A stretch of 64,000 nucleotides of DNA, from positions 1-64,000 of the forward strand of contig NZ_BMJH01000004.1 in NCBI RefSeq assembly GCF_014643175.1, read 5' to 3'. A program made the position numbers and the translations under genes. Origin of the DNA: Hoyosella rhizosphaerae (GTDB lineage Bacteria > Actinomycetota > Actinomycetes > Mycobacteriales > Mycobacteriaceae). A model generated the notes under the pieces. It made no database searches. It was not told the origin of the DNA and saw nothing but the letters and a program-made list of their open reading frames with translations. Shown here one piece after another: positions 34,662-38,830 of the stretch. The first letter of the stretch is position 1, and each line of letters starts with the position of its first letter.

Positions 34662-34679
34662 CGTCTGGTTGAGACAGTG

Positions 34680-34728
34680 AAACACCCCATTACCAGGGCT
34701 TACGAGCCCAAGGTAGTGGGGTGTTTCT
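34680..34728 (+). terminator. Terminator after the tRNA-Ser/tRNA-Arg pair
   Basis: A long hairpin (AAACACCCCATTACC / GGTAGTGGGGTGTTT with an inner GGGCT-TACG-AGCCC stem) followed by T-rich sequence. Confidence 0.85.
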
Positions 34729-34791
34729 TTTCTCACATGCTGTCGTTCATGGGCGAGCAACCCATTGTCACGACGACGAGAGGCGAATACC

Positions 34792-35031
34792 GTGGAAAGC
34801 ATGCGGCAGATCGACTACGTGTCTGAATCTCAACCGAAGCGTCGCGTGGTCCGAGCGCACGTTCTTACGTGGCTGATACGCGTTTCGCTGTGGGTGGTGT
34901 TCGCCGTTATCGCCACGAATGTCGAGGCGTCCTGGTGGACGCTAGCGCTTCCTGGCATCGCCGTCATGCTGCTGGCTGAACTTGCGATGTATCGCTACAT
35001 TTTGCGGCCGGTGCTCAACCCAACTGCTTGA
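34792..35031 (+). CDS. Small two-helix membrane protein
   Basis: A 79-residue protein with a charged N-terminal part (VESMRQIDYVSESQPKRRVVRAH) and two hydrophobic helices (LTWLIRVSLWVVFAVIATNV; WWTLALPGIAVMLLAELAMYRYIL). No family is recognised. I chose the GTG at 34792, after GAGG at 8 nt; the frame is open to 34765. It converges on the Asp23-cluster end, 10 bp away. Confidence 0.6.
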   Translation: MESMRQIDYVSESQPKRRVVRAHVLTWLIRVSLWVVFAVIATNVEASWWTLALPGIAVMLLAELAMYRYILRPVLNPTA

Positions 35032-35041
35032 GCCTGGAGCG

Positions 35042-35620
35042 TTACTGCACTATTCGTGCCGCATCTTTTTTGGCGACCTTATCTAGTTCGATTCGAACCA
35101 TCTGCTGCGGATCGCCGACCGCATCCTGAATCTGTGCGCAGGTGTTCTGCGCGGCGGTGAGGACGTCGTCGAGGTCGGCGTGCGGTTCGATGGTGCAGGA
35201 AATCAGGATGACGGGCGTTCCCCGGTCAACAAGTGCCTTACCGGTCGCGGAGGCGATGCCATCAGTTTGGGCGAGTGATTCCGCGGCAGCGCTGGCGACT
35301 GTGTCAGGTTTGATTGTGAACATGCCCGTGGAACCTTCGGCTGCGGTGAGGTGCACTGGTGTCATGTGGTGGCGGCGGAAATGCTTTAGGAGCCACCCCA
35401 GAGCGATAAGGCCTAACGCAAGGCCGGTAGCTGCGCTTGCCCAGGGGAACCAGGAAGCGTCAGCTACGTCTTGCAAGCCGGTGGTGTCGACCCGGTTTGG
35501 TGCAACAGCGTCGAGGTGACCGAGTTGCCAGGCGATGAGCGCACCGCCGCTCGCTGCGAGAAGTACTCCGAGGAGCAGAGTTGCGATGCGGTCGACTGTG
35601 GCAAGTGTGCGGCTCATCAT
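35042..35620 (-). CDS. AmaP-like alkaline-shock membrane anchor protein
   Basis: A 192-residue protein with two N-terminal TM helices (about 11-33, TLLLGVLLAASGGALIAWQLGHL, and 60-80, AATGLALGLIALGWLLKHF) and a soluble Asp23-like C-terminal domain (PDTVASAAAESLAQTDGIASATGKAL...VILISCTIEPHADLDDV). This is the layout of AmaP, which anchors Asp23 at the membrane in Gram-positive bacteria. It is the last gene of a six-gene operon and overlaps its upstream neighbour by 4 bp. Confidence 0.75.
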   Translation of the reverse strand: MMSRTLATVDRIATLLLGVLLAASGGALIAWQLGHLDAVAPNRVDTTGLQDVADASWFPWASAATGLALGLIALGWLLKHFRRHHMTPVHLTAAEGSTGMFTIKPDTVASAAAESLAQTDGIASATGKALVDRGTPVILISCTIEPHADLDDVLTAAQNTCAQIQDAVGDPQQMVRIELDKVAKKDAARIVQ

Positions 35621-36147
35621 GAGTTCGCTCCTTCTTGGCGGATACGCACTGCGATCTTGGGGGTGCGCGCAAGTGCGGAAAAGCGTTCAGTAAGCCGTTG
35701 CTTAATGGTGTCGCTTAGGTCGGCGGGCGGTGAGCCGAAGACTGTGGCAGTGACAGTCACTTTTCGTTTGGTGGCTGATGCTTTCGCTTTGACCACTGGC
35801 ACGGTGTCTAGCGCTGTGGTTCGGGCGAGGTCGGCTATAGCTCGGGGCGCAAACCATACTGTTTGCTCGCTTCCTGCGACTCTGGTTGTTGCGCGCGGTT
35901 TCACCGCTAAATAGAGGAAAAGAACACCGAGGACCGCAATGCCAGCGCCGACAGGAACGAACCACGGCTGGGGCGTTTGCCCGTCTAGTGTGGTCAGAGC
36001 CTGCGGGATGACGGTTTGCCCCGTCACCCATTGTTGCGAAACGAGCAGGTCGTTGATGGTGACCGCAGCGATTCCAATAAGTAGTGCGATGACGGTGACG
36101 GCGCCTGCGATTGCTGCGGGCCGTGCTTTAGGTGCGCGAGTGGTCAT
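35617..36147 (-). CDS. DUF6286-like membrane protein of the Asp23 cluster
   Basis: A 176-residue protein with two TM helices (about 14-32, AGAVTVIALLIGIAAVTIN, and 66-82, VPVGAGIAVLGVLFLYLAV) and a soluble C-terminal part with an Asp23-like beta-alpha pattern (TTALDTVPVVKAKASATKRKVTVTATVFG). I chose the ATG at 36147 after AAGGAG at 6 nt. It overlaps the upstream asp23 gene by 20 bp and the AmaP-like gene by 4 bp. The family name is from memory of actinobacterial Asp23 loci; the function is unknown. Confidence 0.7.
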   Translation of the reverse strand: MTTRAPKARPAAIAGAVTVIALLIGIAAVTINDLLVSQQWVTGQTVIPQALTTLDGQTPQPWFVPVGAGIAVLGVLFLYLAVKPRATTRVAGSEQTVWFAPRAIADLARTTALDTVPVVKAKASATKRKVTVTATVFGSPPADLSDTIKQRLTERFSALARTPKIAVRIRQEGANS

Positions 36148-36523
36148 CGTTTTCTCCTTGCAGGATTCGTCGCCGCGGTGGTGCGGTGTCGACAACGTAA
36201 TGAGCCGTGACGTCGACGCGATCAACGGGAAGCCCTGTGAGGTGGGGGACTTCGCTGAGTATGCGGTCGTGAATTGCTTGACATACGGTGTGGGCTGGGT
36301 TCGGCCATGCCACCGCTGCGTGCACCGTGATGCGGGTTCTCTTTCCAGCGGTGACAACAGTGATCCGGGGGAACTCGCGTCCGGTGATGCGGTCAATGGC
36401 GGATGAGGATCGGATGACACCGGAGGTGTCGAGCACGACCCTTTCCGTCACCGTTTCGATAACGCGGTCATGAACGGTGAGTTCACCCAAATCGGCAGGG
36501 TCACCGATTGCAGGGTCACCCAT
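36128..36523 (-). CDS. Asp23/Gls24 family protein (copy 2)
   Basis: A 131-residue soluble Asp23-like protein. The core is LTVHDRVIETVTERVVLDTSGVIRSSS, RITVVTAGKRTRITVHAAVAWPNPAHTVCQAIHDRILSEVPHLTGLPVDRVDVTAHYVV, the usual alternation of beta strand and helix. The ATG at 36523 overlaps the end of the DUF2273 gene by 8 bp, so translation is coupled. Asp23 proteins line the inner membrane face and are linked to cell-envelope stress. Confidence 0.8.
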   Translation of the reverse strand: MGDPAIGDPADLGELTVHDRVIETVTERVVLDTSGVIRSSSAIDRITGREFPRITVVTAGKRTRITVHAAVAWPNPAHTVCQAIHDRILSEVPHLTGLPVDRVDVTAHYVVDTAPPRRRILQGENDDHSRT

Positions 36524-36695
36524 TGTTGCGTCCCCGCAGTAAAGCCCCGAGGTCGATTGTGCCGTCGCGGTGTGCGCCAAGCGCAGTGAATGCTCCACCG
36601 ACGACAATTGCCAGCAGTAATGCGCTCCAGCCGCCGAGGACGATAGCGATGGTCAGGAGAAGGCCTGCGATGAGGCCGGTTTGTGCGTTCGACAT
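36516..36695 (-). CDS. DUF2273-like small membrane protein of the Asp23 cluster
   Basis: A 59-residue protein with two hydrophobic helices separated by a short Gly-Gly-Trp turn (TGLIAGLLLTIAIVLGGW; ALLLAIVVGGAFTALGA) and a short basic tail (LGALLRGRNNG). Small DUF2273 proteins are regular members of Asp23 loci and may help membrane anchoring. The ATG at 36695 follows GGAG. It overlaps the downstream asp23 gene by 8 bp and lies just after the hairpin at 36730-36774. Confidence 0.7.
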   Translation of the reverse strand: MSNAQTGLIAGLLLTIAIVLGGWSALLLAIVVGGAFTALGAHRDGTIDLGALLRGRNNG

Positions 36696-36729
36696 GGTGA
36701 GCAACTCCAATAGGTGAAGGGGTCAATGG

Positions 36730-36774
36730 GCGGCCAGGCCCCAAGGGGTGCGGTTAGCGCAGGGGCCTGGCCGC
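36730..36774 (-). terminator. Internal hairpin in the Asp23 operon (attenuator or processing site)
   Basis: A perfect 13-bp inverted repeat GCGGCCAGGCCCC / GGGGCCTGGCCGC with a 19-nt loop, between the second and third genes of the operon. No U-run follows on the minus strand, so it may attenuate or stabilise rather than fully terminate. Confidence 0.5.
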
Positions 36775-36788
36775 GGTGACTCGACGGA

Positions 36789-37061
36789 TTACACGAGATC
36801 TTCGATGGTGATGCTTATAGGGCCGTCTTCGATACGTGAGACCGCGGCGCGGATGTTGTCGGCGACGCTGTGTATCTGGGAGCCGGTGTGCAGCGACACA
36901 TGAATGTCAATGCCTGTGTCGTCGATCTTCACGCCAACTACTTTTTCACCTGGAAGGTATGTGGCGAGAGTTCCAAAGGTGCCGCCATGAAGGTCAGCGA
37001 CACCGTTGACGTCTAGAACTGTCCGCGCGACTCGACGTACCCGCTCGTCGATTGTTGTCAC
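36789..37061 (-). CDS. Small Asp23-like protein
   Basis: A 90-residue protein (TTIDERVRRVARTVLDVNGVADLHGGTFGTLATYLPGEKVVGVKIDDTGIDIHVSLHTGSQIHSVADNIRAAVSRI) that looks like the minimal beta-alpha core of an Asp23 domain. It has no TM segment. It overlaps the upstream asp23 gene by 4 bp, so the two are translated together. A hairpin follows before the next genes. Confidence 0.72.
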   Translation of the reverse strand: MTTIDERVRRVARTVLDVNGVADLHGGTFGTLATYLPGEKVVGVKIDDTGIDIHVSLHTGSQIHSVADNIRAAVSRIEDGPISITIEDLV

Positions 37062-37522
37062 TGCACTCGTGCCTCAGTGCGTGCGTCTTCTTCGTTATCG
37101 TCTTCGGATTCGATGTAAACGTCGTGGACAGTGACGTTCACTTCGATGACTTCGAGGCCCGTCATTTGCTCGATCGCAGAGATGACGTTGCGCCGGATGC
37201 CTTTGGCAAGTTCGGGAATCGAGACGCCGTAGTCGGCGACAATGTCAGCGTCGACGGCTGCTTGACGCTCTCCGACCTCAACGGAAATGCCTTGCGACAG
37301 GTTGGTGGTGCCACCGGGAATGCGTTCACGGATCGCGCCGAATGCTCGGCTGGTTGCTCCGCCGAGGGCGTGAACTCCGTTGACCTCACGGGCTGCGATC
37401 CCGGCGATCTTTGCCACCACAGTGTCAGCGATAGTGGTGTTTCCCTGCGTGGTTGTCAGGGTTCCGCTCTGTGAAGTGGTGTCGACTTTGTTGGCGGTGG
37501 CCTGGACGTTGCTGGTGGTCAT
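37058..37522 (-). CDS. Asp23/Gls24 family envelope stress protein (copy 1)
   Basis: A 154-residue Asp23 protein and the first gene of the minus-strand cluster. After a Ser/Thr-rich head of about 25 residues comes the classic core: TTIADTVVAKIAGIAAREVNGVHALGG, GISVEVGERQAAVDADIVADYGVSIPELAKGIRRNVISAIEQMTGLEVIEVNVTVHDVYIE. The ATG at 37522 follows AAAGGG at 8 nt. It is divergent from the ECF sigma gene, with 135 bp between, and is likely to be controlled by that sigma factor. Confidence 0.88.
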   Translation of the reverse strand: MTTSNVQATANKVDTTSQSGTLTTTQGNTTIADTVVAKIAGIAAREVNGVHALGGATSRAFGAIRERIPGGTTNLSQGISVEVGERQAAVDADIVADYGVSIPELAKGIRRNVISAIEQMTGLEVIEVNVTVHDVYIESEDDNEEDARTEARVQ

Positions 37523-37607
37523 CGATTTACCCTTTCGTGAAGGACTGTTACGTAAAGTGAGACGGCGCGGCTGGGCGAAACTGCACGAACATTCTCATGT
37601 GATCACC

Positions 37608-37633
37608 ATCACGGCAGTTTTGGTGGCGCTTCC
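37608..37633 (-). promoter_or_regulatory. Possible ECF-type promoter of the Asp23 operon
   Basis: On the minus strand GGAAG (37633-37629) and CGTGAT (37613-37608) are separated by 15 nt, resembling the GGAAC / CGTT pattern of ECF-sigma promoters. They lie about 85-110 bp upstream of the first asp23 gene. The match is partial. Confidence 0.25.
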
Positions 37634-37657
37634 GGTGATCCCCTCTACAGTTGGAAA

Positions 37658-38302
37658 TTGTTGCCAGGGTTGATCACACGAGGCGTGCAGGAAGTGGTGA
37701 GGACATCGGATCGCCAACTAGCGCGTGACCTCCCAGTGCGTGATCGCCCAGTGCATGATCTCAGTGCACTTTCGGACGAGGTGCTTGCCAGGCGGGCAGC
37801 ACTGGGTGCACGTCCTGAATTTAATGAAATTGTGCGCCGACACGGCCCAGCATTGTTCCGGTACGCGAAGAGAATGTTGGCCGACCAAGGTGACGCCGAA
37901 GATGCTGTTCAAGAGGCATTTGTGGCCGCGTGGAAGTCGCTGCCGGACTGGGAAGGCCGTTCCGCATTGCGGACGTGGTTGTTTACGATTGTGGCACGCA
38001 AAGCTACCGATCATTTACGTAAACGGAGGCCGACACCGGCGGAGATCACAACCGATAGCGCGGCAACAGATCCGCATTCCAACCCGGAGCAGAAAGCTCG
38101 ATACAACAACTTGCTGGCAGCACTTGAGCAGGCTTTGACGGCCTTGCCCACCGGCCAGCGATCCGTGTGGTTGCTGCGAGAAGTGGAAGGCCTGTCGTAT
38201 AGCGAGATTGGGGAAGTACTCGCAATGTCGTACGACAGTGTCCGTGGAAACCTTGCCCGCGCACGGTCAACTCTGGGAGGGGCACTCAGCGAATGGCGAT
38301 AG
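37658..38302 (+). CDS. ECF RNA polymerase sigma factor
   Basis: A sigma-70 ECF factor of up to 214 residues. Region 2 is ALFRYAKRMLADQGDAEDAVQEAFVAAWKSLPDW through LRTWLFTIVARKATDHLRKRRP; region 4 is LTALPTGQRSVWLLREVEGLSYSEIGEVLAMSYDSVRGNLARARSTL. The start is uncertain: TTG at 37658 or 37670, or GTG at 37694 or 37697, are in frame and none has a convincing ribosome site. Its end overlaps the next gene by 10 bp, where an anti-sigma gene would be expected. The divergent Asp23 cluster suggests an envelope-stress regulon. Confidence 0.88.
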   Translation: MLPGLITRGVQEVVRTSDRQLARDLPVRDRPVHDLSALSDEVLARRAALGARPEFNEIVRRHGPALFRYAKRMLADQGDAEDAVQEAFVAAWKSLPDWEGRSALRTWLFTIVARKATDHLRKRRPTPAEITTDSAATDPHSNPEQKARYNNLLAALEQALTALPTGQRSVWLLREVEGLSYSEIGEVLAMSYDSVRGNLARARSTLGGALSEWR

Positions 38303-38796
38303 ACGGACCGGCGATGGACGAACCGACGCCCGACGACCCGAGCGCAGAATTCGACGCCTTGCTGCAGCGAGCAGCCCAGGAGGTGCGCGAGGATGACGAC
38401 AACGATTCGTGGTTACGGGTTACTGAAAGCATTTTCGCGAAAGTGCGGGCATCGACTCGCCATTCAGTGCCGCTACGAGCAGAACTTTCAGCGGACCTCG
38501 TTGCGAGAGGCGATCAGCTTTTCATCACCGACATTGTGGTGAAGCAAATCCTTCGTGATGCGTTGGAAGGGATCGGTGGCACAGCACCCCTGCGGATGCA
38601 CTTCGACATCGATAATGGGATCTGTCAGGGTATCGAAATTGACCTGACCGCTGAATACGGAACGGACCTCAAAAAATCTTCCCGCGACATTCGCAATCTC
38701 GTCCATGAAGTGCTGCGGGTAGAACTTGGCTCTGCGGCAACTACCCCAGAAAACATCAAAATACACATCGCAGATGTCACTGACGAACGGTTTTAG
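38293..38796 (+). CDS. Asp23-like protein coupled to the ECF sigma gene
   Basis: A 167-residue acidic soluble protein. The N-terminal half (DDPSAEFDALLQRAAQEVREDDDNDSWLRVTESIFAKVRAS) is helical. The C-terminal half (LFITDIVVKQILRDALEGI, LRMHFDIDNGICQGIEIDLTAEYGTDLKKSSRDIRNLVHEVLRVEL) follows the Asp23 pattern seen in the divergent operon. There is no zinc-binding HxxxCxxC and no TM helix, so it is not a ZAS-type anti-sigma. Start ATG at 38293, 10 bp inside the sigma gene. Position suggests it modulates the sigma factor; this is inference. Confidence 0.65.
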   Translation: MAIDGPAMDEPTPDDPSAEFDALLQRAAQEVREDDDNDSWLRVTESIFAKVRASTRHSVPLRAELSADLVARGDQLFITDIVVKQILRDALEGIGGTAPLRMHFDIDNGICQGIEIDLTAEYGTDLKKSSRDIRNLVHEVLRVELGSAATTPENIKIHIADVTDERF

Positions 38797-38830
38797 CCAG
38801 CAATGATCCGAACGAGTTCGACTAGTTTCG

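Follow-up and report, generated by a model that had tools for sequence, protein, structure and literature searches.

Organization of the locus

The window analysed here is a 64,000-nt stretch (G000:C4:1-64000) of the 3.54-Mb genome of Hoyosella rhizosphaerae. It contains a minus-strand operon of six genes for Asp23-family and small membrane proteins, opposite a plus-strand pair encoding an extracytoplasmic function (ECF) sigma factor and a weakly Asp23-like protein, for which we use the convenience name AslA. All eight genes were confirmed from the list of open reading frames (ORFs) and the sequence, at the coordinates given in an earlier note on this DNA. We consider it likely that the locus forms a self-contained stress regulon, in which the sigma factor would drive the Asp23 operon, AslA would act as a soluble anti-sigma factor and a CRP-like regulator would provide a second input.

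In ascending coordinates, the operon comprises genes for an AmaP-like membrane protein (35042..35620, 192 aa), a DUF6286 membrane protein (35617..36147, 176 aa), Asp23b (36128..36526, 132 aa), a DUF2273-like small membrane protein (36516..36695, 59 aa), mini-Asp23 (36789..37061, 90 aa) and Asp23a (37058..37522, 154 aa), which is the first gene of the operon. The AmaP-like and DUF6286 genes overlap by 4 nt, DUF6286 and Asp23b by 20 nt, Asp23b and the DUF2273-like gene by 11 nt, and mini-Asp23 and Asp23a by 4 nt. The gene order and the overlaps of 4-20 nt reported in the earlier note are borne out, except that 93 nt separate the DUF2273-like gene from mini-Asp23. Upstream of Asp23a, also on the minus strand, lie a predicted ECF-type promoter of the operon (37559..37587; CGTGC, an 18-nt spacer and CGTC), which ends 36 nt before the Asp23a ATG, and a CRP-like palindrome, CGTGATGGTGATCACA (37598..37613), which has one mismatch to TGTGAN6TCACA and starts 26 nt before the -35-like element. 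On the plus strand, the sigma gene (37658..38302) encodes at most 214 aa, its start being uncertain (TTG at 37658 or later), and its 3' end overlaps the AslA gene (38293..38796, 167 aa) by 10 nt.

Family assignments are firm by Pfam or NCBIfam for Asp23a (PF03780, E 2.9e-31), Asp23b (PF03780, E 1.1e-6), the DUF6286 protein (PF19803, E 5e-10) and the ECF sigma factor, whereas mini-Asp23 (PF03780, E 2.3e-5), the DUF2273-like protein (PF10031, E 0.035), the AmaP-like protein (NCBIfam AmaP, E 2.5e-12, 46.9 of 55 bits) and AslA fall below the curated cut-offs. A relative of the DUF2273-like protein occupies the same position in most related operons. The four soluble products had been thought to share an Asp23 core, and profile matches to Asp23a agree with this (99.6% for Asp23b, 96.9% for mini-Asp23 and 96.7% for AslA). 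Hydropathy likewise supports the three small membrane proteins proposed earlier, with hydrophobic segments in the AmaP-like protein, the DUF6286 protein (two segments) and the DUF2273-like protein (residues 2-42); it indicated no membrane segment in the three soluble Asp23 proteins, the sigma factor or AslA. The AmaP-like protein and the DUF6286 protein match each other at the profile level (98%). The DUF6286 protein is a weak match as an Asp23-fold protein (40%), and the same assignment for AmaP is unsupported (1.6%). A sequence search of solved structures with Asp23a returned no convincing relative (best E 0.31).

Asp23 proteins occur widely among Gram-positive bacteria; little is understood of what they do. 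The staphylococcal asp23-amaP operon encodes proteins of the Asp23, AmaP and DUF2273 families and is controlled by SigB with RsbW and RsbV. The same three families stand together in the window operon, with AmaP and DUF2273 matches below the curated cut-offs. However, the staphylococcal operon depends on a general stress sigma factor, while the window has an ECF sigma gene and an Asp23-type partner opposite the operon. Another member of the Asp23 family, Bacillus YqhY, is tied to the control of fatty acid synthesis and encoded in an operon with acetyl-CoA carboxylase genes, according to the excerpted text of PMC8144471; unlike the window locus, the operon described in that excerpt has no sigma partner.

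The sigma factor and its probable group

ECF sigma factors consist of Sigma70 regions 2 and 4 and lack regions 1.1 and 3. The window sigma factor has both retained regions over cut-off (PF04542, Sigma70_r2, E 4.1e-22; PF08281, Sigma70_r4_2, E 1.8e-12), and none of the nine Pfam families listed for it at E <=1 is a region 1.1 or region 3 family. Two ECF groups, ECF286 and ECF292, are presented in the excerpted text of a 2022 review (PMC8999054) as encoded beside soluble Asp23-family proteins that are predicted to be anti-sigma factors; the groups are placed there under mechanism unknown, with models from Streptomyces rimosus (ECF286) and Mycolicibacterium cosmeticum (ECF292). The window sigma gene likewise adjoins a gene for a soluble Asp23-like protein, AslA (38293-38796), and most likely belongs with these groups, judged by its genomic context. 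The idea of an Asp23-type anti-sigma factor is therefore not new, since the same review excerpt already predicts it for ECF286 and ECF292. The promoter, its composite with a CRP-like box, the proposed descent from a zinc domain and the one-sided association with Asp23 described below were worked out here, with no claim to a first report. The excerpts of PMC8144471, PMC9769785 and PMC10128001 contain no link between Asp23 and an ECF sigma factor.

Co-occurrence with Asp23 operons

Of the 61 genomes searched in this GTDB family, 49 had an Asp23 match over cut-off. The 56 strongest Asp23a loci, from 48 genomes, together with the window made up a family set of 57 loci (numbered L below). The earlier note had held that missing co-conservation of the sigma gene and the Asp23 cluster would speak against its proposal; the two are co-conserved, but only partially, the sigma-AslA pair being present in 25 of the 57 loci, from 22 of the 49 Asp23-positive genomes, and missing from 32 loci. 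The AslA profile used to call pairs had drifted towards Asp23 in general, so that a location 3' of a sigma gene counted for as much as the score. Two of the unlinked loci (L041 and L070) have little upstream DNA, so that a sigma gene could be missed there. The pair is divergent from the operon in 21 loci, as in the window, and co-directional in four (L024, L033, L057 and L058); in L019 it lies about 6 kb from the operon.

A search of the same 61 genomes with an AslA profile gave 24 clear AslA places, all 24 within about 8 kb of an Asp23 operon, and no match in the 12 family genomes without Asp23, although this search missed two known AslA genes (L028 and L057). The remaining rows consist of operon-encoded Asp23a and Asp23b proteins and of five marginal matches elsewhere (E 0.002-0.008). 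The company is thus one-way: AslA goes with Asp23, and Asp23 is often found without AslA.

A second set, from an Asp23a profile scan of named genomes, holds the best 80 of 483 confirmed loci and includes Hoyosella, Rhodococcus, Mycolicibacterium, Nocardioides, Aeromicrobium, Kribbella, Nocardia, Amycolatopsis and other genera. Hoyosella altamirensis (L123) and Nocardioides alpinus (L148) are among the carriers of the same locus. Forty of the 80 loci were divergent, 10 co-directional and 27 unlinked, the last class including contigs cut near Asp23a as well as L127; three (L124, L133 and L159) were set aside as copies of family loci. One co-directional pair is false, the supposed AslA of L185 being Asp23a, which leaves nine real ones. 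The same gene order in other genomes shows that the arrangement is not due to chance. Gene order, homologies, motif counts and co-location are directly observed, and the module is a real, conserved unit of an already predicted kind.

A promoter-like motif upstream of Asp23a

A repeated CGTGC...CGAC element was first noticed by eye upstream of Asp23a in divergent, sigma-linked family loci. In its strict form (CGTGC-N17/18-CG[AT]C), it occurs in 16 of the 21 divergent linked family loci versus two of the 32 unlinked ones; the opposite strand gave 1/21, and shuffled sequences gave a mean of 1.03 and a maximum of 5. Because the family set had itself suggested the motif, all patterns of two 4-mers separated by a gap were enumerated, after near-copies (L031, L043 and L050) had been dropped to leave 18 linked loci. 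The top pattern, GTGC-N17/18-CGAC, was found in 13 of these 18 versus one of the 32 unlinked loci, with maxima of 7-9 in 15 shuffles. In L019, the element stays with Asp23a, about 6 kb from the sigma gene, and so does a CRP-like box with two mismatches.

Loci from the wider class and from the named set carried related motifs. The pattern CGTG[AC]-N17/18-[CT]G[AT]C[CT] was present in 10 of 15 class loci (shuffle mean 0.73, maximum 6). In the named set, CGTG[AC]-N17/18-[CT]G[AT]C was found in 20 of 40 divergent and 7 of 10 co-directional loci versus 2 of 27 unlinked ones (shuffle means 3.66, 1.25 and 1.96; maxima 9, 5 and 6, respectively), and seven of the nine real co-directional pairs carry it. 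Sigma-linked loci often carry the motif and unlinked loci seldom do, which supports the control of the cluster by the sigma factor that the earlier note had suggested. As far as sequence comparison goes, the sigma factor probably drives the Asp23 operon.

Several results count against this control. The motif was seen by eye and then counted in the same family set, and the named set is not fully independent of the family set, because some of its loci are related to family loci (Hoyosella L123, for instance, is close to L020). None of the four co-directional family loci has the strict motif, and half of the divergent named loci (20/40) lack even the relaxed one; nine of the latter inspected by eye, without a count, had a CGAC-like second half and an altered first half. 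Enumeration in the class loci gave GTGA-N17/18-TGTC in 10 of 15 versus none of the 32 unlinked family loci (L103 left out), but shuffled maxima reached 8-10, and this pattern is therefore weak as a discovery. The motif showed no genome-wide excess, either in the genome of the window (17 matches to CGTGCN{17,18}CGWCTM versus 40 for the backward control) or, with a stricter pattern, in five relatives (10 versus 9). Finally, among 50 sigma factors (L126, L128 and L170 dropped), no residues clearly account for the -35 base; covariation between the two is confounded by descent, and at the top column the window sorts with the other group.

Eight of the 17 sites in the genome of the window were viewed, and two looked intergenic (L105 and L111). 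The first, a close copy of the promoter (G000:C1:105306-105334), immediately precedes an 84-aa ORF judged J-domain-like by inspection rather than by a family search, and the second lies before a gene for a membrane-like protein. Since the motif is not enriched, we make no claim of a wider regulon from these sites.

The CRP-like palindrome

We read the palindrome as a putative CRP/GlxR site. It was scored as TGTGAN6TCACA with two mismatches at most, relative to the -35-like element in its relaxed form. Among divergent loci, it starts 25-26 nt before that element in 7/18 of the family set, 5/15 of the class loci and 18/40 of the named set. At a distance of 20-40 nt, it was found in none of the 10 co-directional and none of the 32 family and 27 named unlinked loci, most of which have no -35/-10 element anyway. 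Anywhere upstream, CRP-like boxes were present in 15 of 18 family, 6 of 15 class and 39 of 40 named divergent loci, and in 3 of 10 named co-directional loci. They also occur in some unlinked loci (7/32 family, 9/27 named), which counts against the mechanism proposed below. The palindrome may serve the operon, the sigma gene or both; in L019 it goes with the operon.

AslA as a predicted anti-sigma factor

AslA matches PF03780 at E 0.027 (15.3 of 28 bits, under the Pfam cut-off), and its likeness to Asp23 therefore had to be established by profile comparison. A profile of 43 AslA sequences and one of Asp23a matched at 96.7% across 121 columns (0.6% for the reversed control), and a comparison with a smaller Asp23a set gave 91.7% over 57 columns. 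The AlphaFold model of AslA has two N-terminal helices, within residues 16-54, and a C-terminal alpha-beta-beta-alpha-beta domain; the Asp23-like domain spans approximately residues 76-163. Fold searches displayed no anti-sigma factor among the 50 matches shown for each, a result that by the tool's own note carries no weight.

The motif HX3CX2C is the signature of zinc anti-sigma (ZAS, zf-HC2) factors, of which RsrA is an example. It is present at the N-terminus of AslA in two family loci, L024 and L033. When the L033 protein was used as query against 296 genomes of the class, 34 genomes had a match, and 30 loci were examined, including L024 and L033 again. In 19 of them, a protein matching L033 at E <=1e-9 has the motif; all 19 have an ECF sigma match within the approximately 3.5 kb fetched, and 11 have an Asp23a gene on the opposite strand. 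Next to ECF sigma genes in L101 and L102, the L033 query also hit proteins that have HX3CX2C but do not match Asp23. In the named set, 10 of 51 real pairs have the motif, nine of them co-directional. Altogether, 29 AslA relatives have HX3CX2C before an Asp23-like domain, 10 of them from the named set and the other 19, including two from the family of the window, from the class search.

The N-terminal profile of these 29 relatives matched a zf-HC2 profile (27 proteins, from 30 loci of eight genomes) at 97.2% over 80 columns. Both sets had been picked for having the motif, which weakens this match as evidence, and the 90.5% obtained with the motif histidine and cysteines masked (reversed control 2.9%) is therefore the fairer figure. 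Pfam zf-HC2 was matched by one of six sequences tried, at E 0.091 only, and a sequence search of solved structures with the ZAS-type AslA set gave no convincing relative (best E 0.25). The N-termini of non-zinc AslA proteins match those of the zinc group at 69% over 41 columns, and their link to zf-HC2 runs through the zinc relatives. In terms of orientation, the zinc-motif AslA genes of the family (L024 and L033) are co-directional with the Asp23 operon, as in relatives from Nocardia and Amycolatopsis, and non-zinc AslA genes are mostly divergent from it.

The sigma and AslA genes overlap in 20 of 25 family pairs and in 50 of the 51 real named-set pairs (44 by exactly 10 nt; copies L133 and L159 included), with AslA start codons chosen by script near the sigma stop, which somewhat favours overlaps. 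The window AslA has no motif of its own, and its anti-sigma reading comes from its zinc-bearing relatives together with gene position and overlap. With ZAS factors, then, AslA relatives share HX3CX2C and a profile match, whereas the window protein lacks the motif and is otherwise an Asp23-like domain. On these comparisons, AslA is probably a soluble anti-sigma factor. The further gene that the earlier note had seen at the 3' end of the sigma gene is indeed Asp23-like, but most likely encodes an anti-sigma factor and not just another scaffold protein. What speaks against this role is the missing zinc motif of the window AslA itself, the lack of any direct match between non-zinc N-termini and zf-HC2 (0.2%) and two loci in which AslA has no intact sigma gene: L036, with AslA (L036:7793-8323) and no sigma gene, and L127 of Mycolicibacterium iranicum, with AslA beside a sigma fragment only (L127:8841-9674). 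Such a gene is odd for an anti-sigma factor; AslA may have a second role, or L127 may contain a sequencing error.

Proposed mechanism and alternatives

In the mechanism that we propose, the ECF sigma factor would bind the promoter at 37559-37587 and transcribe the divergent Asp23 operon, whose products would build an Asp23 scaffold linked to the membrane, held there by the AmaP-like, DUF6286 and DUF2273-like proteins. The N-terminal helices of AslA, as a putative remnant of a zinc anti-sigma domain, would hold the sigma factor, and the C-terminal Asp23-like domain would be the sensor, responding most likely to the assembly state of Asp23 or to the membrane. A CRP-family regulator bound at the palindrome would probably add a second signal. 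As the earlier note proposed, the Asp23 proteins may form a stress-sensing layer, with envelope stress as a candidate signal. We infer the sigma binding by AslA, the activity of the promoter, the CRP binding, the scaffold and the sensed signal from sequence, with higher confidence in the link between sigma factor and operon than in AslA as anti-sigma factor, and with low confidence in what the Asp23-like domain senses. If the mechanism holds, an actinobacterial Asp23 operon acquires a dedicated switch with a named promoter, Asp23-type anti-sigma factors may derive from zinc anti-sigma factors, and the question of what Asp23 senses becomes a testable one about a sigma and anti-sigma pair. It is possible, though doubtful, that what AslA senses is the condition of the scaffold. 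Its Asp23-like domain would join or leave membrane Asp23 assemblies, so that a lost or stressed scaffold would alter the amount of free AslA available to hold the sigma factor. Such homotypic partner switching would let a structural layer regulate its own supply; it would have evolved when a zinc anti-sigma domain was joined to a scaffold domain, with the zinc site later dropped in some lineages.

The alternative with most in its favour, which we nevertheless regard as unlikely, is that AslA is a further component of the scaffold, or else activates or chaperones the sigma factor, and that sigma activity is set by transcription of the sigma gene, for example through the CRP-like box between the divergent genes. 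This would suit a window protein that lacks the zinc motif and resembles Asp23 along most of its sequence, the retention of AslA in L036 and L127, and the far higher frequency of CRP-like boxes in divergent than in co-directional named loci, which fits a role for the box at a divergent sigma gene. However, relatives join ZAS-type N-termini to the same Asp23-like domain, the sigma and AslA genes usually overlap, and in L019 the box has remained with Asp23a, away from the sigma gene.

We find it quite improbable that the sigma-AslA pair senses something unrelated and controls a wide regulon, of which the Asp23 operon would be just one of many targets. The 32 family loci without a sigma partner indicate that Asp23 does not need the sigma factor, but every clear AslA gene lay beside an Asp23 operon and the motif has no genome-wide excess. 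A merely coincidental neighbourhood, with no regulatory link, is barely credible. Two congeners live without the module and over half of the family Asp23 loci have no sigma pair, yet the pair recurs in many genera and several orientations, accompanied by the promoter motif. The self-contained regulon is the explanation that we favour.

Presence and absence at a tRNA-Arg site

The module lies within a stretch of DNA (approximately 34741..38820, extent judged by eye) that is missing from the corresponding interval, between tRNA-Arg and the glycolipid-binding protein gene, in two genomes of the same genus, in which a profile search found no Asp23 match. This stretch also includes an 88-aa ORF (34765-35031) with hydrophobic segments and weak matches to Rv2743c/PspM families (E 0.032 in Pfam, 0.18 in NCBIfam). 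Apart from L002, which is the window's own locus, the fetched loci showed no convincing counterpart of the ORF (tblastn, E <=0.1; one partial match in L141, E 0.009), and it was left out of the module. The congeners share the order of the flanking genes (HisC, hydrolase, tRNA-Ser and tRNA-Arg, followed by glycolipid-binding protein, amidase and dehydrogenase). From tRNA-Arg to the first matched residue of the next gene, the distance is about 174-178 bp in the congeners versus about 4.1 kb in the window (34663-38830). The whole module may have been gained in one lineage or lost in others, as a unit.

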